44,274 bases of DNA from Ignavibacteria bacterium. Lineage in GTDB: Bacteria > Bacteroidota > Ignavibacteria > SZUA-365. Positions 3,288 through 14,245 of this stretch are shown here, piece after piece; the stretch's first letter is position 1, and every line of letters starts with the position of its first letter. The stretch spans positions 1 through 44,274 of the forward strand of contig PKTF01000404.1 in assembly GCA_002869275.1 (NCBI GenBank), read 5' to 3'. The notes under the pieces are model-generated. The model was not told where the DNA came from. It saw nothing but the letters and a program-made list of their open reading frames with translations, and searched no databases. Position numbers and translations under genes: made by a program.

Positions 3288-4991
3288 ATGAACAGGAAGT
3301 ATGAAACAGGTTGGCTTCGAAGAGGGCTTTTGCCCGTCGCACTGACGATTTTTCTTGGACTTGTGCTCGGACTGTCCCCTGCCTTGGCGCAGGAGGACAG
3401 CGGTGAAGGCGGCGACAGCTACGTCCTCGCCCATGACAATCCTGCCGTCATCCATACGATGGAAGTGCAGGACAGGCACACGGATTACCTGATGGATATT
3501 CCCGGCGTGGTGGGTACGGGTACCGGCATGAACGAATATGGTCAGCCGGCCGTCATCATTTTCACGCAGCATGAAATCGGGAACGTGTTTCTTCCCACGC
3601 AGCTGGAAGGAATTCCTGTCATTGAAAAGGTGCTTCCGGACCTGGGACCGGCTTCGGACGGAAACGGTAACGGAGGCGCACAGGGTGGCAGCATTTCCAC
3701 GAGTTCAGGGACCAACACTGTCAACGCGCTCACGCAGCGGTTCACACGTCCGGTCCCGATCGGCTGCTCGACGAGCAACTGGAATGAATGCGTTGGCGCC
3801 ACCATCGGTGTGCGCGTACGAAACGGTACGAATTATTATGTGCTCTCGGCGAACCATGTATTCGCCCGCAATAACTATGCGAGTCTCGGTGAGAAAATCG
3901 TGCAGCCGGGTCGCGGCGATGTAAGCTGTGCCTATATCACCAGCGACGAAGTCGGTCAGCTCGCTGACTACCAGCAGCTGGTTTTCTCCTATAGTGCCAG
4001 CAACACCATGGATGCTGCCATCGCGACAACCACTCCCGCACTTACGGGAACCGCCACACCGCTCGATGGCTACGGCACACCAAACAACGTGACCAAGCTG
4101 GCCTCTATCGGCATGGAAGTGCAGAAGTACGGCAGAACGACGGGGCTGACCGTCGGCAAGGTGTACGCAATCAACACGACCGTAGTGCTCAGCTACAGTG
4201 TCGGCGGCATTCGTTTCGTGAATCAGATCGTCGTCGAACCGAAGAAGAAGAACTCGACGTTCGTAGATGGTGGTGACTCTGGTTCCCTGCTCGTGACCAA
4301 CGACGCCAGCGTTAATCCGCTCGGACTGGTATTCGGCAAGAGCAGCAACTATGCAATCGTCTCGCCGATCGATCCCATCCTTCAGCGTTTCAATGTTGAA
4401 ATCGACAACGGTACATCACCGCTTCCCGTCGAACTGGAATATTTCTCCGGTGCACTCATGGGTGATGACGTCCACCTGAAATGGCGTACCACCACCGAGC
4501 TGCAAAACCACGGTTTCTTCGTCCAGCGTTCGCAGGACAAGGACCGCTGGGAAGACCTCGAGATGATTCCGGGAGCCGGCAACAGCAGCATCCCGATTCA
4601 GTACAGTTATGTCGACCGCAACGTCACGAACTTCTTCGGCGGACAGCGTCTCTACTACCGCCTGCTGCAGGTGGATCGCGACGGCACCGAGACGTATTCA
4701 TCAGTTCTCGATGTCGACCCGCTGCCACGTGCGGCTTCGATGGTGGTCTTCCCCCATCCGGTGCGCAGTTCGGCAAACGTCCAGGTCAATGTGACCCAGG
4801 ACGTACCCGGCGACCTGCACGTATACGATGCCACGGGAAGAAGGCTCGATCAGTTCTCCAATACACTGCCGGGTACGACCGGCACATACAACGTCCCGCT
4901 GCAGATGGGTGATATCGGTCCGGGTAACTATTTCCTGGAATACCGTACAGCCACCAGCGTGCTGCGGAAACGCATACTCGTGGTGCGATGA
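3288..4991 (+). CDS. NAL1-like trypsin-fold serine protease with T9SS sorting domain
   Basis: This 567-residue exported protein has a signal peptide (residues 1-34, ending ALA before QED). Residues about 50-120 match the N-terminal region of the NAL1-like family (RHTD.L..IPGVVGTGTG pattern). Residues about 150-375 form the chymotrypsin-like domain with an intact candidate triad: His190 (in SANHVF), Asp242 (in TMDAAIA) and Ser331 (in GGDSGSL). In this family, named after plant NARROW LEAF 1, a His-Asp-Ser triad has been reported. An FN3-like module (about 380-485) and a T9SS sorting domain (about 490-567, FPHP start) follow. The ATG at 3288 sits 4 nt after GGAGG. The substrate is unknown. The next gene shares the FN3-plus-sorting-domain tail, so the pair may act together at the cell surface. 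Confidence 0.85.
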   Translation: MNRKYETGWLRRGLLPVALTIFLGLVLGLSPALAQEDSGEGGDSYVLAHDNPAVIHTMEVQDRHTDYLMDIPGVVGTGTGMNEYGQPAVIIFTQHEIGNVFLPTQLEGIPVIEKVLPDLGPASDGNGNGGAQGGSISTSSGTNTVNALTQRFTRPVPIGCSTSNWNECVGATIGVRVRNGTNYYVLSANHVFARNNYASLGEKIVQPGRGDVSCAYITSDEVGQLADYQQLVFSYSASNTMDAAIATTTPALTGTATPLDGYGTPNNVTKLASIGMEVQKYGRTTGLTVGKVYAINTTVVLSYSVGGIRFVNQIVVEPKKKNSTFVDGGDSGSLLVTNDASVNPLGLVFGKSSNYAIVSPIDPILQRFNVEIDNGTSPLPVELEYFSGALMGDDVHLKWRTTTELQNHGFFVQRSQDKDRWEDLEMIPGAGNSSIPIQYSYVDRNVTNFFGGQRLYYRLLQVDRDGTETYSSVLDVDPLPRAASMVVFPHPVRSSANVQVNVTQDVPGDLHVYDATGRRLDQFSNTLPGTTGTYNVPLQMGDIGPGNYFLEYRTATSVLRKRILVVR

Positions 4992-6292: not shown

Positions 6293-7339
6293 ATGGTTGG
6301 CATTGTTGGATACGGGACACAGATACCGCGGTACCGCATCCGGGTCGAGGAAATAGCCAAGGTGTGGGGTGCCGATGCCCCGGCATATCGTCGGGGGCTG
6401 AACCTGAACGAGAAATCCGTCCCCGCGCCGGACGAGGACTGCGCGACACTCTCGGTCAACGCCGCGTGGAACGCCGTGAAGCGCGCCGGCATCCATCCGC
6501 AGCAGCTCGGTGCCGTGTATGTTGGGAGCGAATCACATCCGTATGCGGTTAAACCCACGGGTACGATTGTGTCGGAGGCGCTCGGCGCCTGTCCCCACGT
6601 GCATACGGCTGATCTGGAATTCGCCTGCAAGGCGGGGACCGAGGGACTGTTCATCGCGCTCAACGAAGTGCAGTCGGGGATGATTCCCTACGCCCTCGCG
6701 ATCGGTGCGGACACCTCGCAGGGTGCGCCCTCGGATGCGCTCGAATATTCCGCCGCCGCGGGTGCCGCTGCGTTCGTCGTCGGTGCCGAGAACCTGGTCG
6801 CCGAACTCCTGGACACCCACGTGTTCATGACCGACACGCCGGATTTCTGGCGTCGCGAGCATACGCATTATCCTGAGCACGGCGGTAGCTTCACAGGCGC
6901 ACCGGCGTATTTCAAGCACGTGACCGGTGCCACGAAAGGCATCATGGAAAAAACCGGGATGAAGCCCGAGGCCTTCGACTATGTCATTTTCCACCAGCCC
7001 AACGGAAAATTTCCGGTGATCGCTGCGAAAAAGCTCGGTTTCAAGGAAGCACAGTGGACCCCGGGCCTGCTTTCGCCGACACTCGGGAATACCTACTCGG
7101 GCTCCTCGCCGATGGGTCTCGCTGCCACTCTTGACGTCGCCGAGCCGGGGAATCTGATTCTCCTCGTTTCGTACGGTTCGGGTGCGGGCAGCGACGCTTT
7201 TGTGTTCCGCACGACTGAGCGGCTGATGGCCGTACGTGATCTCGCCCCGCTGGTGCGCCGTCAGCTCGACGAGCACCGGCAGTACATCGAGTACGGCACG
7301 TACGCCAAGTTCCGAAGAAAAATTCTCAAGGCGGAATAG
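6293..7339 (+). CDS. archaeal-type hydroxymethylglutaryl-CoA synthase
   Basis: This 348-residue thiolase-superfamily enzyme is expected to condense acetyl-CoA with acetoacetyl-CoA to HMG-CoA, the committed step toward mevalonate. The candidate catalytic set of the HMG-CoA synthase family is present: Glu80 (in VGSESHPY), Cys112 (in [10 protein letters not shown]) and His234 (in FHQPNGKFP). The length and the AVKPT and GNTYSGSSP patterns match the short archaeal/bacterial form rather than the longer eukaryote/firmicute type. The start has a strong AAAGGAG site. A thiolase follows after 9 nt and a DUF35 protein after that, the same trio that forms the channelling thiolase/HMGCS complex described in methanogenic archaea. 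Possible alternatives are another acyl condensation in a secondary pathway; no HMG-CoA reductase is in this window. Confidence 0.9.
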
Positions 7340-7348
7340 GAGGTGCAC

Positions 7349-8506
7349 ATGAGAGACGTAGCGATCATCGGCATTGGAATGATGCACTGGGGCGAGCTCT
7401 GGGAGAAGTCCATCCGCGACCTTTGCGTGGAGGCCTCCCTCGCCTGCATCGAAGACGCCGGCGTCGACCACATCGACGCCATGACCATCGGAAGCATGTC
7501 GAGCGGGCTGTTCACCGGACAGGAACATCTCGCGAGCATGGTACCCGACTATCTCGGAAGAAAACACCTTCCCGCTACACGCGTGGAGTCGGCATGCGCC
7601 TCGGGCGGACTCGCCGTGCGCACCGCCTTTCTCGAAGTTGCTTCGGGCATGTCGGACTACGTGCTCGCGGTCGGCGTGGAAAAGATGACCGACGTCAGCG
7701 GAGGCATGGCCACCTATGCGCTGGCGACGGCATCGGATCAGGATTACGAAGCATTCCACGGCGTGACGTTTCCCGGGCTGTACGCCATGATGGCACGAGC
7801 GCATATGGAACGCTTCGGCACCACGCGCGAGCAACTGGCGCAGGTACCGGTGAAGAACCATGCCAATGGCAGCAAGAACCCGCACGCGCAGTTTCCCTTT
7901 ACCGTCACGACGGAACAGGTGATCGGCAGCGTCATGGTCGCTGATCCACTGACCCTGCTTGACTGCTCTCCCATCACCGACGGTGCCGCCGCCGTGCTGC
8001 TCGCTCCGGCGGAGAAAGCGCGCAAACTCGGGAAGCATCCAACGACTGTCATTACCGGTATCGGACAGGCCACCGACACCATCGCACTTGCTCAGCGCAA
8101 GGACCTCCTTCAGATGGGCGCCGTGGAAGAAGCCACCCTGCGGGCACTGTCCATGGCCGGAAGGAGCATCAAGGATATCAGCTTTGCCGAGGTACACGAC
8201 TGCTTCAGTATCGCCGAGATCATGGTCATCGAGGCCATGGGTGTTGTACCTGCCGGACAGGGTGGTCCGGCGACTCTTGATGGATACACCGCGATCGAGG
8301 GTGCATTTCCGGTCAATCCCTCGGGCGGGCTCAAGTCGAAAGGACATCCTGTCGGCGCCACAGGCGTCGCCCAGATCATCGAGGCCGTCACCCAGCTTCG
8401 CGGTGCGGCGGGCGAACGACAGGTCGCGGGCGCGACGGCCGCCCTGACGCAAAACATGGGTGGTTCAGGTGGCAGCAGTGTCGTACATATCGTGGAGGTG
8501 CAATAA
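7349..8506 (+). CDS. thiolase family protein, acetoacetyl-CoA thiolase of the HMGCS complex
   Basis: This 385-residue thiolase likely makes acetoacetyl-CoA from two acetyl-CoA and hands it to the neighbouring HMG-CoA synthase. The nucleophile is Cys83 (in ESACASGG). Other active-site residues are His283 (EVHDCF) and His333 (in KGHPVGATG). The EVHDCF and [12 protein letters not shown] patterns place it with the archaeal/SCP2-thiolase-like branch, not the FadA/AtoB branch. I prefer the ATG at 7349, 5 nt after GGAGG (7339-7343), over the GTG at 7343 that overlaps the site. The stop codon overlaps the start of the DUF35 gene by one base (TAATG), suggesting translational coupling. Confidence 0.9.
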
Positions 8507-8904
8507 TGCAGGTCCCAAGATTCTGGAGAGAAATCCCCCGCTATTATCGGCTCGAGGCCGGTAAATGCTCGGGCTGCGGTACAATCGCATTACCTCCTCG
8601 ACTGGTGTGCGCCGATTGTGCCGGACGAGAATTCGAAACGGTCACGCTCTCGGGCCGCGGAACGCTGCAGACGTTCACCATCATCCGCATTCCACCCGAG
8701 GGTTTCGGCGACCAGGCCCCCTATGCCATCGGCATCGTGGAGATGGAAGAAGGTGTGCGCCTGATGGCGCAGATCACGGACTGCGACGTCGAGCAGCTCG
8801 GAATCGGAGACAGGCTGGTAACGAAGTTCCGAAGAATTCGCGAGGAAGGATTTACCGGCGTCATCATGTACGGCTATAAATTCGTACCCGACGTCGGACT
8901 GTAA
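8506..8904 (+). CDS. DUF35 Zn-ribbon/OB-fold protein, scaffold of the thiolase/HMGCS complex
   Basis: This 132-residue protein has a rubredoxin-like zinc ribbon (Cys21, Cys24, Cys35, Cys38 in two CxxC pairs) followed by an OB-fold (about residues 45-130, beginning with the G-x-L-x-x-F-T pattern). In the archaeal complex the DUF35 protein bridges thiolase and HMG-CoA synthase and presents a shared CoA site, so the thiolase step is driven by the next one. Here it is the third gene of the same operon, preceded by GGAGG (8494-8498) and overlapping the thiolase stop by one base. It ends 6 nt from the convergent stop of the heparinase-like gene. Confidence 0.88.
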   Translation: MQVPRFWREIPRYYRLEAGKCSGCGTIALPPRLVCADCAGREFETVTLSGRGTLQTFTIIRIPPEGFGDQAPYAIGIVEMEEGVRLMAQITDCDVEQLGIGDRLVTKFRRIREEGFTGVIMYGYKFVPDVGL

Positions 8905-8917
8905 CCTGGATTACAGT
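8898..8917. terminator. palindrome holding both convergent stop codons
   Basis: ACTGTAA (8898-8904) and TTACAGT (8911-8917) are exact inverted repeats around a 6-nt loop. The plus-strand TAA of the DUF35 gene and the minus-strand TAA of the heparinase-like gene sit in the two arms. An extra CGGAC/GTCCG pairing further out could lengthen the stem with a bulge. This is the only candidate element for ending transcription of either operon here; it lacks a long T run. Confidence 0.4.
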
Positions 8918-10764
8918 TTCGGTCCGATCTGCAGTTCCGGCAGACCCGGCCGCTGAATATGAACGGTTTCCCCATCGTCGTCAAAGCGAATGGGCAGATC
9001 GGTCACTCCGATGAGAAACACCACGGCACTCAGCTGCGGCATGAGTGCGCGGTTCTGCAGTATGACAGACTGCCGGGACTGTTTTTCACCGAAGGCCGGG
9101 TAGCATTCGGTTTCCTGGATGATCAAGGATTCGGGGCCGAGCGTCTGCATGATGACTGTGGCATCGCCAAGGCGGATATCGACGCGTCCGGTTGTCGCGG
9201 CAATGTCGGCGTCGGGATGGAAATGGAAAAAGCTGCGATACTGATGCGTACCCTTTCCGTGCAGCCAGTCGATCACCGCGATCCACTCGTCTCCACCCAT
9301 CACCACCGCGCGTTCGTGTGTCACCGGCTTGGCGAGTCGGCGATACCCGTCATGCGCCCCGTGCAGCACCGTAATGCCGTCCACCTCTTCATGCGAGGCA
9401 TGAAGGATCTTTGCCCTCCGGCCCACCCGGAAGCTTTTCCATACCTCAGACTGCTCCACCCCGTCAATTTCCACGGTACTGTGTGCCGCCGTGCTGCGTG
9501 AATAACTGCGTTCACGGGATTCACGGTAATGGAACACGCCGGTGTCGGTTACCAGGCGCCGATTATCGAGCGACCACTCGAAGCCCAGGGTGTCGCAATG
9601 CGCATGACCGGGCTGATAATCAGGACCGACGTTCCCTGCGTCGAACACGATCCAGTTCCGTGCACTACTCGCGGTCAGGAGTCCCGAGACATTCGCGGGC
9701 TTTTCCGACGCCGCGGCCCGCGGCTGATGCGCATCGGGTAAAGTCCACTCCATCTCAGCACAGAGCTGTGTACCCCGCTGCAACACCTCACCGGTGCGAA
9801 GGAAGAAGCTCCTGGTGCTGTCGTTGAAATACGGGATCTCACCATCGGGATGGCGCATGCGTTCGAGGAAGGCCGTCATCGATGCGGCCGCCTGCGCGAG
9901 TTCTTCCGGGACTGCACTCTCTGCCATCGCGATGGCTTCCGCCATATCGAGAACGTCGCTGAGCATGGACACATGGTACATCGGACTCCGTTCAAAATGA
10001 CATCCATCCGCCAGCACCTGTTCGCGCAATTCACGACCGAGCAGCTTGAGCCCGATCCGCCGCGCCTGCGCGCCGGTTTTCGTATCGAGGAAGAGTCCGG
10101 ACAACACCATCGCCTTGATGTTGCGCAGCAGGTGGTTGGCCATGGTTCCCTTCTCCAGGTTGCGCAGCAGAGAGCGCGTCATGGCTTCCACTCCCCTTGC
10201 AAGCTGTTTCAGATCTGCTTCCTCCGCGGTTCGACCGGACTCCAGCGCCCTCGTATACAGCCGTATCCACGCTTCGATACGAATTGAAAGTACGTACGGA
10301 TGCCAGGAGCTGCGGCGGACGCCCGTTCCGGTGGCGGGGTAAAGACGTTCCCAGTCCGCGGTGAAACGCAGAGCCTCATCGAGAAGCCCGGGAGCTGCAT
10401 CCTCCCTGTCGAGCAGTGCGAGCAGATAGTCATGGTAACCGAAGTGAAACTGCCACAGCAGAGGCTGTCCGGCCACGGCCGACCGGATGGATCCGTCGTC
10501 CGTCGGCAGCGTGAGCACATCCTTGAGGAAACTGAAGCGCCGGGCATTGAGGTCGATGTCTTCACAGTGGTAACGCGACCCCAGCCGTGCGATCGGCGAC
10601 ACCGAAGCATCCTCGCGCACATCTGTCATGAGCTTCGAGGTGAGGCCGGTGCGATCGAGCAATGAGACAAGTCCGCCTTTCACGGTCCGATGTACACGCC
10701 AGTAAATCATCGACGGACGAAGATGAACGAGAGACCAGAAGACAACAGGCAGATTCGTGGCCAT
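8911..10764 (-). CDS. heparinase II/III family polysaccharide lyase-like protein
   Basis: This 617-residue protein has the heparinase II/III layout: an alpha/alpha-toroid (about residues 60-340; note NHLLRN 210-215 and RSPMYH 259-264) and a beta-sandwich beginning near residue 360 with the family signature PGHAHCDTLGFEW (385-397). These positions carry the Asn/Tyr/His residues used for lyase chemistry in the family. There is no signal peptide, which is common for versions encoded in exopolysaccharide clusters. It is the last gene of the EPS operon and may trim or remodel the glycan, or clear misrouted polymer. The start has only a distant AAGGA site, so the exact N-terminus is less certain. 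It converges with the HMG-CoA operon. Confidence 0.85.
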   Translation of the reverse strand: MATNLPVVFWSLVHLRPSMIYWRVHRTVKGGLVSLLDRTGLTSKLMTDVREDASVSPIARLGSRYHCEDIDLNARRFSFLKDVLTLPTDDGSIRSAVAGQPLLWQFHFGYHDYLLALLDREDAAPGLLDEALRFTADWERLYPATGTGVRRSSWHPYVLSIRIEAWIRLYTRALESGRTAEEADLKQLARGVEAMTRSLLRNLEKGTMANHLLRNIKAMVLSGLFLDTKTGAQARRIGLKLLGRELREQVLADGCHFERSPMYHVSMLSDVLDMAEAIAMAESAVPEELAQAAASMTAFLERMRHPDGEIPYFNDSTRSFFLRTGEVLQRGTQLCAEMEWTLPDAHQPRAAASEKPANVSGLLTASSARNWIVFDAGNVGPDYQPGHAHCDTLGFEWSLDNRRLVTDTGVFHYRESRERSYSRSTAAHSTVEIDGVEQSEVWKSFRVGRRAKILHASHEEVDGITVLHGAHDGYRRLAKPVTHERAVVMGGDEWIAVIDWLHGKGTHQYRSFFHFHPDADIAATTGRVDIRLGDATVIMQTLGPESLIIQETECYPAFGEKQSRQSVILQNRALMPQLSAVVFLIGVTDLPIRFDDDGETVHIQRPGLPELQIGPKL

Positions 10765-10799: not shown

Positions 10800-12281
10800 T
10801 TATCCGCGCAGGCGCTGCCTCGCCTTCGGCGAAAAGGCCAGCAGCAGCAATGCTCCGACAAAAGACAAAAGGCTTGCGTCGAAACAGATATTTGCAAGAT
10901 ACAGATGTTTGAGCAGATCCCGCTGCCCATCTCCGAACACCTGCATCCACAGTTCGGCGAGTGTCGCCAGAGCGAGCACGACAGTCACACGCGCAAATGT
11001 CGACAGCAGCCGGTGCCGTGCATTCCACAACGGCAGTGGCAGCAGCGCGAGGAGAACCAGGACGATGATCAGGGCATACCCTCTCGGGAAGATGTTGCGC
11101 TTCAATGTCGTCCAGACACTCAGGGGCGTTGCTGTTGCAGCCGTTGCAGGGAGCCATGCAGACCAGGGACGCGAGGTGCCGGGGTCGTTGTACAGCACGC
11201 GTTTCGACAGGTGTGTCAGCTGCGAGCGTTGCATGCTGTCCGCGGCAAACACCAGCATATCCCATGCGATTCCCGGTTCATGCGCGATGATGTCGAGCGC
11301 GACTCGATGGTTCATTTTCGGACGGTAGCGTTCCATTGCCTCAATCCCTTCATCACAAAAGGCGTGATAGCCGATGTATTTCGCACCGTCTCCCATGCTC
11401 AGCCGGTCGAGATGTTCCTGCGGACGGTCGCTGAACACGAGCGCGCCGCAGTAAATGCTCTGATAGGCGTTGACGATACGCGAGTGATACAACGTTGCCT
11501 GCAGCAGCGAAAAACCTACTGGCAGAGCGACGATGAAAAGGGCGTATGAAATCACGCGGCGTGGGCGCTGCCTGAGCGATTCCCACGGCAGCAGCAGCAG
11601 CGCGCCGACCAGTGCCCAGTGCACGTTGCTCAGCTTGGCCGTGGTCATGAAGAACACCGCCAGCATGGACAACCAGGGTCGCGCTCTGCTGTGTCCCTTT
11701 CCACGATAGTAGGCGGAAGCGATGAGAATGAGCAGTAGTCCGATCAGGGATGCCGGTTCCTGGAAGAGGCTGGTGAAGTAGGCGATGTAGTCGGTGTTGA
11801 AGCCGATAAGAACCAGCGGGATCCCGGGAACGAGATACAGCACCGGGGCAGCGGTCTCCGCCTCGCGGTCGACCCATCGCAAAAAGAGCCAGACGAACAA
11901 CAGTACCACCAGCCGCGGCGTCACCGAGATGAATGGGAGGTACAGCGTATCATGCGAGTACAGCAGCAGATTGAGAAACAGTCCGGGAAGCCATACCAGG
12001 AGAATCGAACTGAGCCAGCGGCCGGTCATCGGAAAGTCGAGCTTCCAGAACATCGGCAGGTGCTTGAAGAAACGTTCTTCATGTGCCTGCGTCCCTTCGG
12101 CCGGCCAGTTTTCGACAAAGCCGCTCGGAGCCGAGGTCATCCAGACCATGAGGCGCGAGTAGTCACCGCTATCCGCGAGTCCCACATGCAGCTGCACGGC
12201 GCTTCCGACGAGCAGGATTCCAAGCAGGATGATTTTGAAGGCGCGTCGTGCGCGCGGAACTGCTGCTGCGGGTTTCATCAC
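10800..12281 (-). CDS. polytopic membrane protein, GT-C-like glycosyltransferase candidate
   Basis: This 493-residue integral membrane protein has about ten hydrophobic segments. Soon after the first membrane segment is a DSGDYSRLM motif (about residues 37-45), an acidic first-loop motif of the kind seen in GT-C glycosyltransferases that use lipid-linked sugars. A large non-membrane loop lies at about 270-360. It overlaps the asparagine-synthase-like gene upstream by 4 nt (ATGA) and sits inside the EPS operon, which supports a role in glycan assembly or modification. The resemblance to WsfD-type hexose transferases is an impression from the motif, not a tested match. A membrane protein of unknown function remains possible. 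Confidence 0.6.
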   Translation of the reverse strand: MMKPAAAVPRARRAFKIILLGILLVGSAVQLHVGLADSGDYSRLMVWMTSAPSGFVENWPAEGTQAHEERFFKHLPMFWKLDFPMTGRWLSSILLVWLPGLFLNLLLYSHDTLYLPFISVTPRLVVLLFVWLFLRWVDREAETAAPVLYLVPGIPLVLIGFNTDYIAYFTSLFQEPASLIGLLLILIASAYYRGKGHSRARPWLSMLAVFFMTTAKLSNVHWALVGALLLLPWESLRQRPRRVISYALFIVALPVGFSLLQATLYHSRIVNAYQSIYCGALVFSDRPQEHLDRLSMGDGAKYIGYHAFCDEGIEAMERYRPKMNHRVALDIIAHEPGIAWDMLVFAADSMQRSQLTHLSKRVLYNDPGTSRPWSAWLPATAATATPLSVWTTLKRNIFPRGYALIIVLVLLALLPLPLWNARHRLLSTFARVTVVLALATLAELWMQVFGDGQRDLLKHLYLANICFDASLLSFVGALLLLAFSPKARQRLRG

Positions 12282-14245
12282 GCGTTATCCTTTGATGCGA
12301 CATTCGGGAGTGCGTCGGGATCCGCCGTCGGAGTCCAGTCTCGGTGATCGGCAAACTGCTGCATCCAGTGCTCAAAGACCAGCAGGGTCCACAGCTGCAT
12401 GCCATGTTCGCTGCGTCCCTCTGCGTTGGCATCGATCATGTGTTCGATGCGGGCGGACGAAAACAGTCCACGTGCGCGGGCAGTTTCCCCGAGCAGGATT
12501 TCGCGCGTATACTCGCGTAGGCTGTCACGCATCCACCCACGGACGGGCGGGCTGTAACCGGTTTTCGGCCGCTGGAGGATCTGATCGGGAATACGTCCTT
12601 TCCATGCGCTGCGCAGAAGCACCTTGCGTTCGTCACGGCCTCTGATTTTATCCTCATCGGGAAGCATCATGGAGTATTCGACGAGCCGGTGATCGAGATA
12701 CGGAACGCGCATCTCCACCGCGTTGGCCATGCTCGTCTTGTCCATGTTTTCGAGATTCAGTTCCGGAAGAAACGTGCAGAGATCCACGGCCAGCATACGC
12801 GAAAGCGGCGACAGTCCGTCGGCCTGCGCGAAGAGCTCATTGTGGAATCCGTACAGGGATTCCTCGTCTGCATGTCGCTGCAGGTCGGACGTGAGCAGCG
12901 CATGAATTTCCTGTTCCCTCCAGTAGGAGGAATACCCGAGAAAGCGATCGCGGAAAGGTCGGTGCAGGTGCGCCAGGAGCTGCGCCGGCCGGCGGCCGCG
13001 TTCGGCGGAAAGAAGTCCGCTGCGCATTGCGGCCGAAACGCCAACCGACGCCGCGCGCATGAGAGGTGCGGGCAGCCAGCGCATCGATTCCCCGAGCAGC
13101 ACTGCGGGGTAGCGCGGGTAGCCGGCGAAAATTTCATCCGCACCCATGCCGCTCAGCAGCACTGTCATATTCTTCCGGGCAAGGCGTGTCAGGGCGAGGT
13201 TGGTGACGATTGTCGGATCCGCCAGTGGTTCGTCGCAATGCCAGACGGCTTCGGGAAGCAGGTCAGAGACCGCCGCTTCCAGCACACCTTCATCCAGCGA
13301 CACTCCGAAGGCCTCCGCAGCCATGCGGGCGTAGGGCAGGTCGTCCTGAAACACGTCGCGTGCCCGGCTTTCCCGTGTGTATGTCGCGGTAAATGCCTGC
13401 GGCACGTTGCCATGAGCCGACATCTCGGCGAGCATGATGGTCGAATCCACTCCGCCACTGAGCAGCAGTCCGAGCGGCACGTCACTCACCAGCTGTTCGC
13501 GCACCGCATTGCCCAGCAGAGATCGAAGCTCCTCCTCGCGCTCTTCCCTGCCCAGTGATGTTTGTGCGATCTGTTTCCATCGCGCTACCGGATCCCAGTA
13601 CCGGGTTGTCATGAGACGCCCGTCACGCCATACCGCGCGTGTCCCCGGCTCCAGTTTACTGATTCCCGAAAACAGGGTTTCGTTTCCGGGGATCCAGAGG
13701 AAGGCGAGGTAACGCGGGAGCAGGCGGAAGTCGGGCTGTCGGGTTTGCGGCAGTACGGCGGCGAGTGCCTTCGCCTCGGACGCGAAATACAGCGTCTCGT
13801 TGTGCTCGGTGTAATAGAGCGGTTTGATCCCAAGGTGGTCGCGCACGAGCAGCAGCCTGCGTTCGACCGTGTCATAGAAGGCAAAAGCGAACTGTCCGAC
13901 GAGCCTGTCGGTTACCTTGTCACCCCACTCGACGCAGGCGTGCAGCAGCACCTCGGAATCGCTTTCGCTGCGAAACTGATATCCCGCCGCGATGAGTTCG
14001 CTGCGCAATTCGCGATAGTTAAAGATCTCACCGTTGAATGCGAGCACCCAGCGTCCGTCGGAGGAGAGCATGGGCTGACGCGCGTTGTCGGAAAGATCGA
14101 TAATCTTCAGCCGGCGATGTCCCAGACCGGCTTCCGGACCGGTCCACACCGCCCCGTCATCCGGGCCGCGGTGGACGAGCATCTGCGTCATGACGCGCAG
14201 CGCCTGTTCGTCGACGGATCCGATCATGCCGGCGATACCGCACAT
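12278..14245 (-). CDS. asnB: asparagine synthase (glutamine-hydrolysing)-like amidotransferase
   Basis: This 655-residue two-domain enzyme begins MCGIAG, so Cys2 is the N-terminal nucleophile of the class II glutaminase domain (to about residue 200). The synthetase domain contains the PP-loop SGGVDS (263-268) that binds ATP. Housekeeping AsnB makes asparagine from aspartate and glutamine. Copies embedded in polysaccharide clusters, as here, are thought to amidate a sugar acid or amino-acid substituent; the sequence cannot separate the two. Its end overlaps the next gene by 4 nt, and 46 nt separate its start from the preceding glycosyltransferase. Confidence 0.88.
   Translation of the reverse strand: MCGIAGMIGSVDEQALRVMTQMLVHRGPDDGAVWTGPEAGLGHRRLKIIDLSDNARQPMLSSDGRWVLAFNGEIFNYRELRSELIAAGYQFRSESDSEVLLHACVEWGDKVTDRLVGQFAFAFYDTVERRLLLVRDHLGIKPLYYTEHNETLYFASEAKALAAVLPQTRQPDFRLLPRYLAFLWIPGNETLFSGISKLEPGTRAVWRDGRLMTTRYWDPVARWKQIAQTSLGREEREEELRSLLGNAVREQLVSDVPLGLLLSGGVDSTIMLAEMSAHGNVPQAFTATYTRESRARDVFQDDLPYARMAAEAFGVSLDEGVLEAAVSDLLPEAVWHCDEPLADPTIVTNLALTRLARKNMTVLLSGMGADEIFAGYPRYPAVLLGESMRWLPAPLMRAASVGVSAAMRSGLLSAERGRRPAQLLAHLHRPFRDRFLGYSSYWREQEIHALLTSDLQRHADEESLYGFHNELFAQADGLSPLSRMLAVDLCTFLPELNLENMDKTSMANAVEMRVPYLDHRLVEYSMMLPDEDKIRGRDERKVLLRSAWKGRIPDQILQRPKTGYSPPVRGWMRDSLREYTREILLGETARARGLFSSARIEHMIDANAEGRSEHGMQLWTLLVFEHWMQQFADHRDWTPTADPDALPNVASKDNA

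Follow-up and report, generated by a model that had tools for sequence, protein, structure and literature searches.

A NAL1-type serine protease with T9SS cargo signals in an Ignavibacteria bacterium, and a linked free N-terminal domain in its bacterial relatives

The protease gene and its neighbors

The window, i.e., the whole stretch of 44,274 nucleotides that was analyzed, is contig 297 of the genome of an Ignavibacteria bacterium (3.9 Mb, 436 contigs, 97.6% complete). An open frame with an ATG at 3288 and a stop codon ending at 4991 encodes a 567-residue protein in which a signal peptide, an N-terminal domain (N-domain), a flexible linker, a catalytic domain, an FN3-like module and a sorting domain follow one another (Table 1). 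The start, stop and residue numbers agree with those of an earlier sequence-only reading of this DNA, which had proposed a NAL1-like protease exported through the T9SS.

Table 1. Features of the protease gene and its downstream companion (window coordinates).
Feature	Position	Strand	Basis
NAL1-type serine protease with T9SS tail, 567 aa	3288..4991	+	ORF, Pfam Nal1_C, fold
Sec signal peptide, residues 1-34, SPALA/QED, predicted mature start Q35	3288..3389	+	Sequence reading alone
N-terminal NAL1 domain, residues 51-120	3438..3647	+	Block pLDDT 93-98, rice NAL1 alignment
Flexible Gly/Ser/Asn-rich linker, residues 126-144	3663..3719	+	pLDDT < 50
Chymotrypsin-fold catalytic domain, residues 154-375	3747..4412	+	Model; streptogrisin-type/alpha-lytic proteases over 154/156-373/375
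Codon, catalytic His190	3855..3857	+	Alignment
Codon, catalytic Asp242	4011..4013	+	Alignment
Codon, catalytic Ser331	4278..4280	+	GDSGS aligned to rice NAL1
FN3-like module, residues about 379-478	4422..4721	+	Own-genome repeats, model
T9SS type A sorting domain, residues 487-565	4746..4982	+	TIGR04183
Downstream companion, 313 aa	5049..5990	+	Neighbor in genus genomes

The leader reads as a signal peptide, as had been claimed, and other T9SS-type copies of the protease carry similar leaders by sequence reading. Gln at position +1 of the predicted mature protein resembles the Q-rule of the Bacteroidetes, a rule that does not hold across the whole FCB group (PMC5837995, excerpt). The N-domain is composed of a helix (52-69) and strands at 74-81, 87-93 and 109-115; the stand-alone proteins of alignment A4 belong to its family, and no Pfam family matches the N-terminal region of the protease at E ≤ 1. 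The linker that follows it is a possible processing site. In the catalytic domain, the triad residues reside in the motifs LSANHVF (H190), NTMDAAI (D242) and GGDSGSL (S331).

Two Pfam matches fall in the second half of the catalytic domain, Nal1_C (PF25819; 29.1 bits, cut-off 26.1, residues 274-355) and Peptidase_S64 (26.1 bits, cut-off 23.6). Family S64 is the Ssy5 type; the match to it, although over the cut-off, is limited to positions 583-683 of the 692 in the model. The best PDB matches to the single sequence are rice NAL1 chains (E 0.0017-0.0023, residues 272-355), which reach E 2.6e-10 when a profile of 74 relatives is the query. The C-terminal sorting domain recognized in the sequence-only reading is recovered by the NCBIfam model for T9SS type A sorting domains (TIGR04183; 31.1 bits, cut-off 23, residues 487-565), with the Pfam tail model Por_Secre_tail (PF18962) under its cut-off (16.7 vs. 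27). For the FN3-like module, beta strands are predicted in the AlphaFold2 model (block pLDDT about 60-82); no Pfam FN3 model matches residues 380-480.

The downstream companion has a signal peptide (LVLA/QPV), a variable region, an FN3-like module and a C-terminus that is distantly T9SS-tail-like (E 8.5e-7 and 25% against the protease tail). No catalytic domain was seen in it, and no Pfam or NCBIfam family exceeds its cut-off. A homologue follows the T9SS-type protease on the same strand in five of five genomes of the genus (the host's own and four others, at 40-44% identity in the latter). A role as dedicated partner is weakened by the presence of paralogues elsewhere in those genomes and by the absence of a companion adjoining the protease of G009, the sixth genome with a T9SS-type copy. 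We therefore regard the companion as a conserved neighbor, not a proven partner, and as a candidate substrate, partner or bystander.

Farther downstream, the products of the three genes at 6293-8904 read as HMG-CoA-synthase-, thiolase- and OB-fold-like; these genes recur downstream of the protease in two other loci of the genus, and homologues of the window genes at 8911-10764 and 12278-14245 are nearby in three. Upstream, the product of 522-2873 contains YCF48/Sortilin-like repeats and a T9SS tail slightly under the NCBIfam cut-off (21.4 vs. 23), and is perhaps another T9SS cargo. Five same-strand genes in a row at one locus of G009 (L131; G009:C132:20000-39000), the protease among them, encode C-termini resembling the tail of the window protein.

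The predicted structure resembles rice NAL1

An AlphaFold2 model of the window protease, built from a 74-row alignment, has a mean pLDDT of 81. Taken in blocks of ten residues, pLDDT is mostly > 90 in the N-domain (51-120) and the catalytic domain (about 151-370). The C-terminal domain is predicted with seven strands in residues 483-565 (pLDDT about 66-85); seven strands are also reported for T9SS sorting domains of solved structure (PMC11285876, excerpt).

Comparison of the model with plant NAL1, the check put forward with the sequence-only reading, places rice NAL1 at ranks 1-10 among PDB chains (Z 23.7-28.1, model 50/51-376/383). The top match, 8pn2_A (Z 28.1, rmsd 3.2, 291 aligned, 21% identity), superposes model residues 51-379 on rice NAL1 91-456. 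As judged from the model, the NAL1-type fold holds for both the N-domain and the catalytic domain, which superpose on rice NAL1 (8pn2, 7y77, 8pme; PF25819) as one unit, and the combination of a NAL1-like N-terminal region with a trypsin fold is thereby confirmed. The GDSGS regions align as well, and in both proteins a Phe lies six residues ahead of the catalytic Ser (Ser331 in the window protein). Trypsin has an Asp six places ahead of its catalytic Ser; ‘trypsin-like’ thus applies to the fold of the window protease, not to its specificity. The rice and window proteins differ in that they share 21-22% identity and that the window protease adds a signal peptide and a T9SS tail. Rice chains 7y77 and 8hau differ from each other (LTNHHV vs. 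LTNRHV) one residue before the His that matches window His190. The matches after NAL1 are streptogrisin-type and alpha-lytic proteases, which align with the catalytic domain alone (Z about 20-21.5, rmsd 1.7-2.0).

The NAL1 protease has been called plant-specific, and the NAL1 proteins of cereals influence leaf size, plant height and flowering time (PMC12915138, excerpt). A maize NAL1 is reported in the nucleus and cytoplasm (same excerpt), in agreement with the earlier statement that plant members act inside the cell.

T9SS export and origin of the T9SS form

The host genome contains matches over cut-off to SprA (766 bits, 831 with its neighbors) and to the PorU sortase (962 bits, G000:C345:1384-4692). 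With the sorting domain, these matches support T9SS delivery of the window protease, the route predicted from its sequence. The PorU match spans one TAA, which may reflect a genuine break in the gene, a mistake in the assembly or a frame effect.

Matches to the window protease occur at 38 places in the host genome: the gene itself, a paralogue on contig 56 and 36 C-terminal matches. The latter all start from residue 330 onwards (35 of the 36 from residue 363 onwards) and are thus essentially C-terminal modules, present many times in this genome. The window protein resembles the T9SS type A cargo of Bacteroidota and Ignavibacteria in its FN3-like module and sorting domain, the part matched at these 36 further places, and differs from it in bearing a NAL1-type enzyme.

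The contig-56 paralogue matches residues 43-374 of the window protease at 59% and has no tail; six other tail-less copies are found in the host's family (G001, G002, G003, G006, G008, G011), and a lipobox is present in all seven by sequence reading. In several family members, the counterpart of the contig-56 gene (G000:C56:11936-12925; L002) is near alpha-amylase-like and methyltransferase-like genes (names by reading). A T9SS-type NAL1 protease is encoded in six of 41 genomes: five from one genus (the host and G001-G004) and one, G009, from a sister genus; all genomes examined that join a T9SS tail to a NAL1-type enzyme are members of the host's family. Pfam Nal1_C matches occur in 12 of 61 genomes (10 over cut-off) and in none of 14 control genomes.

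The deepest branches of the host-family tree are tail-less lipobox copies, and the catalytic domains of T9SS-type and lipoprotein-type copies do not split into two clades. Neither a single clade of the genus T9SS copies (p-AU 0.419), i.e., a single origin, nor a single clade of the genus lipoprotein copies (p-AU 0.462) is rejected. A quick tree paired the host's two copies with a bootstrap support of 76%; given this value and the non-rejected alternatives, gene conversion between the two types was dropped as an explanation. The T9SS form may have arisen from a lipoprotein-anchored form by gaining FN3-like and sorting modules of the kind carried by many host proteins. What can be said securely of the window itself is that it encodes a NAL1-type protease that has a complete active site, T9SS cargo signals and lipoprotein-type relatives, and that searches of its family gave no free N-domain gene.

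NAL1-type proteases are widespread in bacteria and usually have a predicted export signal

A scan of bacterial and archaeal genomes yielded at least 540 confirmed relatives, in line with the earlier statement that bacterial members are widespread, and the best 80 of the 540 loci were used for the comparisons below. These 80 come from Planctomycetota, Gemmatimonadota, Desulfuromonadales, Vibrio, Verrucomicrobia, Zixibacteria and others. Alignment A3 takes in all 80 loci and has 81 members; alignment A2 omits seven of the loci (L056, L067, L087, L098, L117, L124, L127). Among members from these best 80 loci, Nal1_C matches 73 of 74 in A2 at E ≤ 0.01 and 72 of 81 in A3 at E ≤ 0.001. Within the host's phylum, the family is found in 25 of 395 genomes at E ≤ 1e-10, with at most five candidates scored per genome. 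Distant matches occur in five of 72,556 plasmid records, all labeled ‘hypothetical protein’.

The complete His190/Asp242/Ser331 triad named in the sequence-only reading is shared by the family. All 81 members of A3 (from the best 80 of 540 relatives) have the His, the Asp, the Ser and the GDSG motif, the invariance of His being partly built in, since the scan selected on LS[CN]NH and a QKxG-type pattern; the Asp and Ser are outside these patterns. No published work on bacterial NAL1-type proteases was found among the matches listed for the topics NAL1, S64 and T9SS trypsin-like proteases, and the literature found has no bacterial member's activity on record, which would leave room for a non-proteolytic surface binding protein that retains a protease fold. 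Invariance of the catalytic residues speaks against such a protein, and we give this alternative very little credence.

An export-like N-terminus is present in 72 of the best 80 loci by a crude hydrophobicity rule, and two of the eight loci without one are cut at the 5’ end. The earlier suggestion that export marks a distinct role for the window protein is not supported by this comparison; from these sequences, secretion looks like the bacterial default for NAL1-type proteases. By the same comparison, the T9SS tail is a local addition, one of several C-terminal ends: it is found in two of the 81 A3 members, the window protein and a genus-mate, and other members of the best 80 loci end without a further domain or with CARDB, PKD, carboxypeptidase-regulatory-like, FN3 or Ig-like domains. 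In L065, L073, L086, L111 (Vibrio), L078, L100 and L128, a set that spans Vibrio, Gemmatimonadota and a Bacteroidota member, the C-terminal domains that come after the catalytic domain resemble one another and are about 85-90 residues long.

The variety of C-terminal ends, together with the occurrence of the family in 25 of 395 phylum genomes, i.e., not universally, would suit a secreted peptidase of ordinary digestive or housekeeping function whose ends can be exchanged. Any small neighboring gene would then be linked to it for expression alone. We consider this explanation improbable in view of the neighbor described below.

A free N-domain is encoded downstream of the protease

A homologue of the protease's own N-domain, about 70 residues long, is encoded in 58 of the best 80 loci (57 by the N-domain profile; L088 was added by the free-copy profile). 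In all 58, the free N-domain is downstream of the protease and on the same strand (e.g., L056:7062-7289, L094:1104-1343); 56 of 57 begin 11-354 nt past the protease stop and one (L077) begins at 1309 nt. Eight of the 22 loci without a free domain have < 250 nt of contig left. The other 14 have room for one, and a small search of 1800 nt in each gave no convincing match; the best leftovers are in L111 (E 0.002) and, on the opposite strand, L052 (E 0.005). A control with reversed ORFs gave no match at E ≤ 0.05 among 12,935.

A flank-independent test was made by searching the 395 phylum genomes with the free-domain profile, which gave 34 places in 21 genomes (E ≤ 1e-5, at most 14 candidates scored per genome). 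Half of these (17/34) lie inside protease frames. All 17 remaining places are on the same strand as a NAL1-like protease domain and 15-339 nt downstream of it, as established by comparing the two lists by hand (G374, G033, G024, G214, G295, G352, G407, G329, G088, G337, G072, G192, G307, G104, G035, G291, G115). In 8 of the 25 protease genomes, no free copy is listed (G000, G083, G172, G279, G294, G331, G342, G397). The strict position of the free gene (17/17 directly downstream) argues against the digestive or housekeeping peptidase considered above, and a gene homologous to part of the enzyme itself is unlikely to be linked to it for co-expression alone. In the host's family there is no free N-domain among 13 places in 9 of 21 genomes, all of which are within protease frames. 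Since the host has no free copy, the argument for a partner concerns the family and not the window gene.

In a quick tree, 56 free and 72 fused N-domains split on one branch (SH-aLRT 98.4), the tree being based on 74 columns with most forks unresolved; two short free domains and two rows in which the fused domain was not delimited were left out. This split suggests that the free gene is an old lineage rather than the product of repeated duplication. Free-domain distances follow catalytic-domain distances (51 pairs, r 0.72, reached by 0 of 2000 permutations), a parallel that common ancestry by itself could produce. A Cys (position 36 of the L056 copy) is present in ≥ 90% of the 58 free-domain rows and absent at that place from the 18 rows of fused domains.

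Signals on the 58 free domains are lipoprotein-like in 13, otherwise export-like in eight and absent in 37, according to a crude rule that misses some. The 37 copies predicted to lack a signal would not obviously meet an exported enzyme. In group f33 (L155-L161, L164, L165), a family of the host's phylum, the free domain has a lipobox-like leader and no signal can be read in the protease. For Gemmatimonadota, hydrophobic N-termini tend to be present on the protease and are often missing from the free domain.

The free domains have no convincing family in Pfam or NCBIfam; the scattered weak matches to LAMTOR5 (E 0.002, 1/58) and DUF6767 (2/58) look like chance, as do matches of the free-domain profile to uS19 (best E 0.00078, about half of the domain). 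A role in anti-phage defense was considered and rejected: PADLOC had no match for the protease, the companion or one of two free domains tried, and gave two matches at E 0.025-0.026 for the second. A model of the free domain (pLDDT 89.6) is closest to rice NAL1 (8pn1_A 88-173, Z 7.0, 65 aligned, 25%); Foldseek alone returned nothing at E ≤ 0.001.

Possible roles of the N-domain and its free copy

Model residue 154/156, where the catalytic domain of the window protease starts, aligns with the first residue of the mature forms of alpha-lytic protease and streptogrisin, and the N-domain and flexible linker occupy the position of their pro regions. Alpha-lytic protease depends on its prodomain for folding, and the prodomain also inhibits the mature enzyme (PMC2605481, excerpt). 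Given this shared position and the role of the alpha-lytic prodomain, the N-domain most likely regulates folding or activity of the protease, with the free copy doing so in trans.

The NAL1-type front domain differs from these pro regions, however, in that it is also a free gene in relatives and lacks a prodomain profile match: Pfam gave none to the alpha-lytic prodomain (PF02983) in the window protease at E ≤ 1, and none in the 58 free domains at E ≤ 0.1. The likeness in fold is weak and not specific. The free-domain model matches the alpha-lytic pro region (2pro, 3pro, 4pro) at Z 4.9-5.2 (68 aligned, 7-9% identity), where chance matches occur, and fold Z values under 8 can reflect a common arrangement; two unrelated chains, the MamB CTD (6qfj, Z 5.3) and a designed mini-binder (8sk7, Z 6.4), are as close or closer. 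Solved structures of NAL1 retain the N-domain next to the catalytic domain, so its removal is not required.

The main rival to a regulator is an assembly role, in which the enzyme would be oligomeric, its N-domain would serve in assembly or in binding substrate, and the free copy would be an additional subunit. Such a role would fit the presence of the N-domain in the aligned rice NAL1 structures, the several chains in NAL1 PDB entries (3 in 8pme, 6 in 8hau) and the appearance of the MamM and MamB CTD, which are small alpha/beta domains, among the weak fold matches of the free domain. Taken alone, it leaves unexplained why the free copy forms its own lineage and is not a recent copy of the fused domain, and we rate it as rather unlikely.

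Overall, we lean towards an exported NAL1-type protease whose N-domain is a regulator, with the free copy acting in trans, as the best explanation. Under the regulator model, a NAL1-type serine endopeptidase would leave via Sec and then the T9SS to the cell exterior, where PorU would remove the sorting domain and the enzyme would stay attached or be released. The N-domain would regulate folding or activity from within the enzyme. The next gene in most of the bacterial relatives examined would supply a second N-domain copy that regulates the enzyme in trans, and this copy would have been lost in the host's family. We infer that the free N-domain is a pro-domain-like regulator, which may act by inhibition, folding help or co-assembly.

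A bolder version, which we advance tentatively and as possible rather than probable, is that the NAL1 N-domain is a former pro-region kept for good, and that the free copy in several phyla is a trans inhibitor or folding helper. Protease and free domain would then form an undescribed two-gene module, of which plant NAL1 keeps the fused half and the window lineage has dropped the free half, perhaps when display of the enzyme changed.

Implications

The two-domain build of NAL1 occurs widely among bacteria, in most cases with an export signal and in many beside a free N-domain, and the T9SS form is a member of this family apparently built to sit outside the cell. The linked free N-domain points to an unstudied way of controlling a protease, and the bacterial pair of protease and free domain may offer a direct way to learn what the NAL1 N-domain does.
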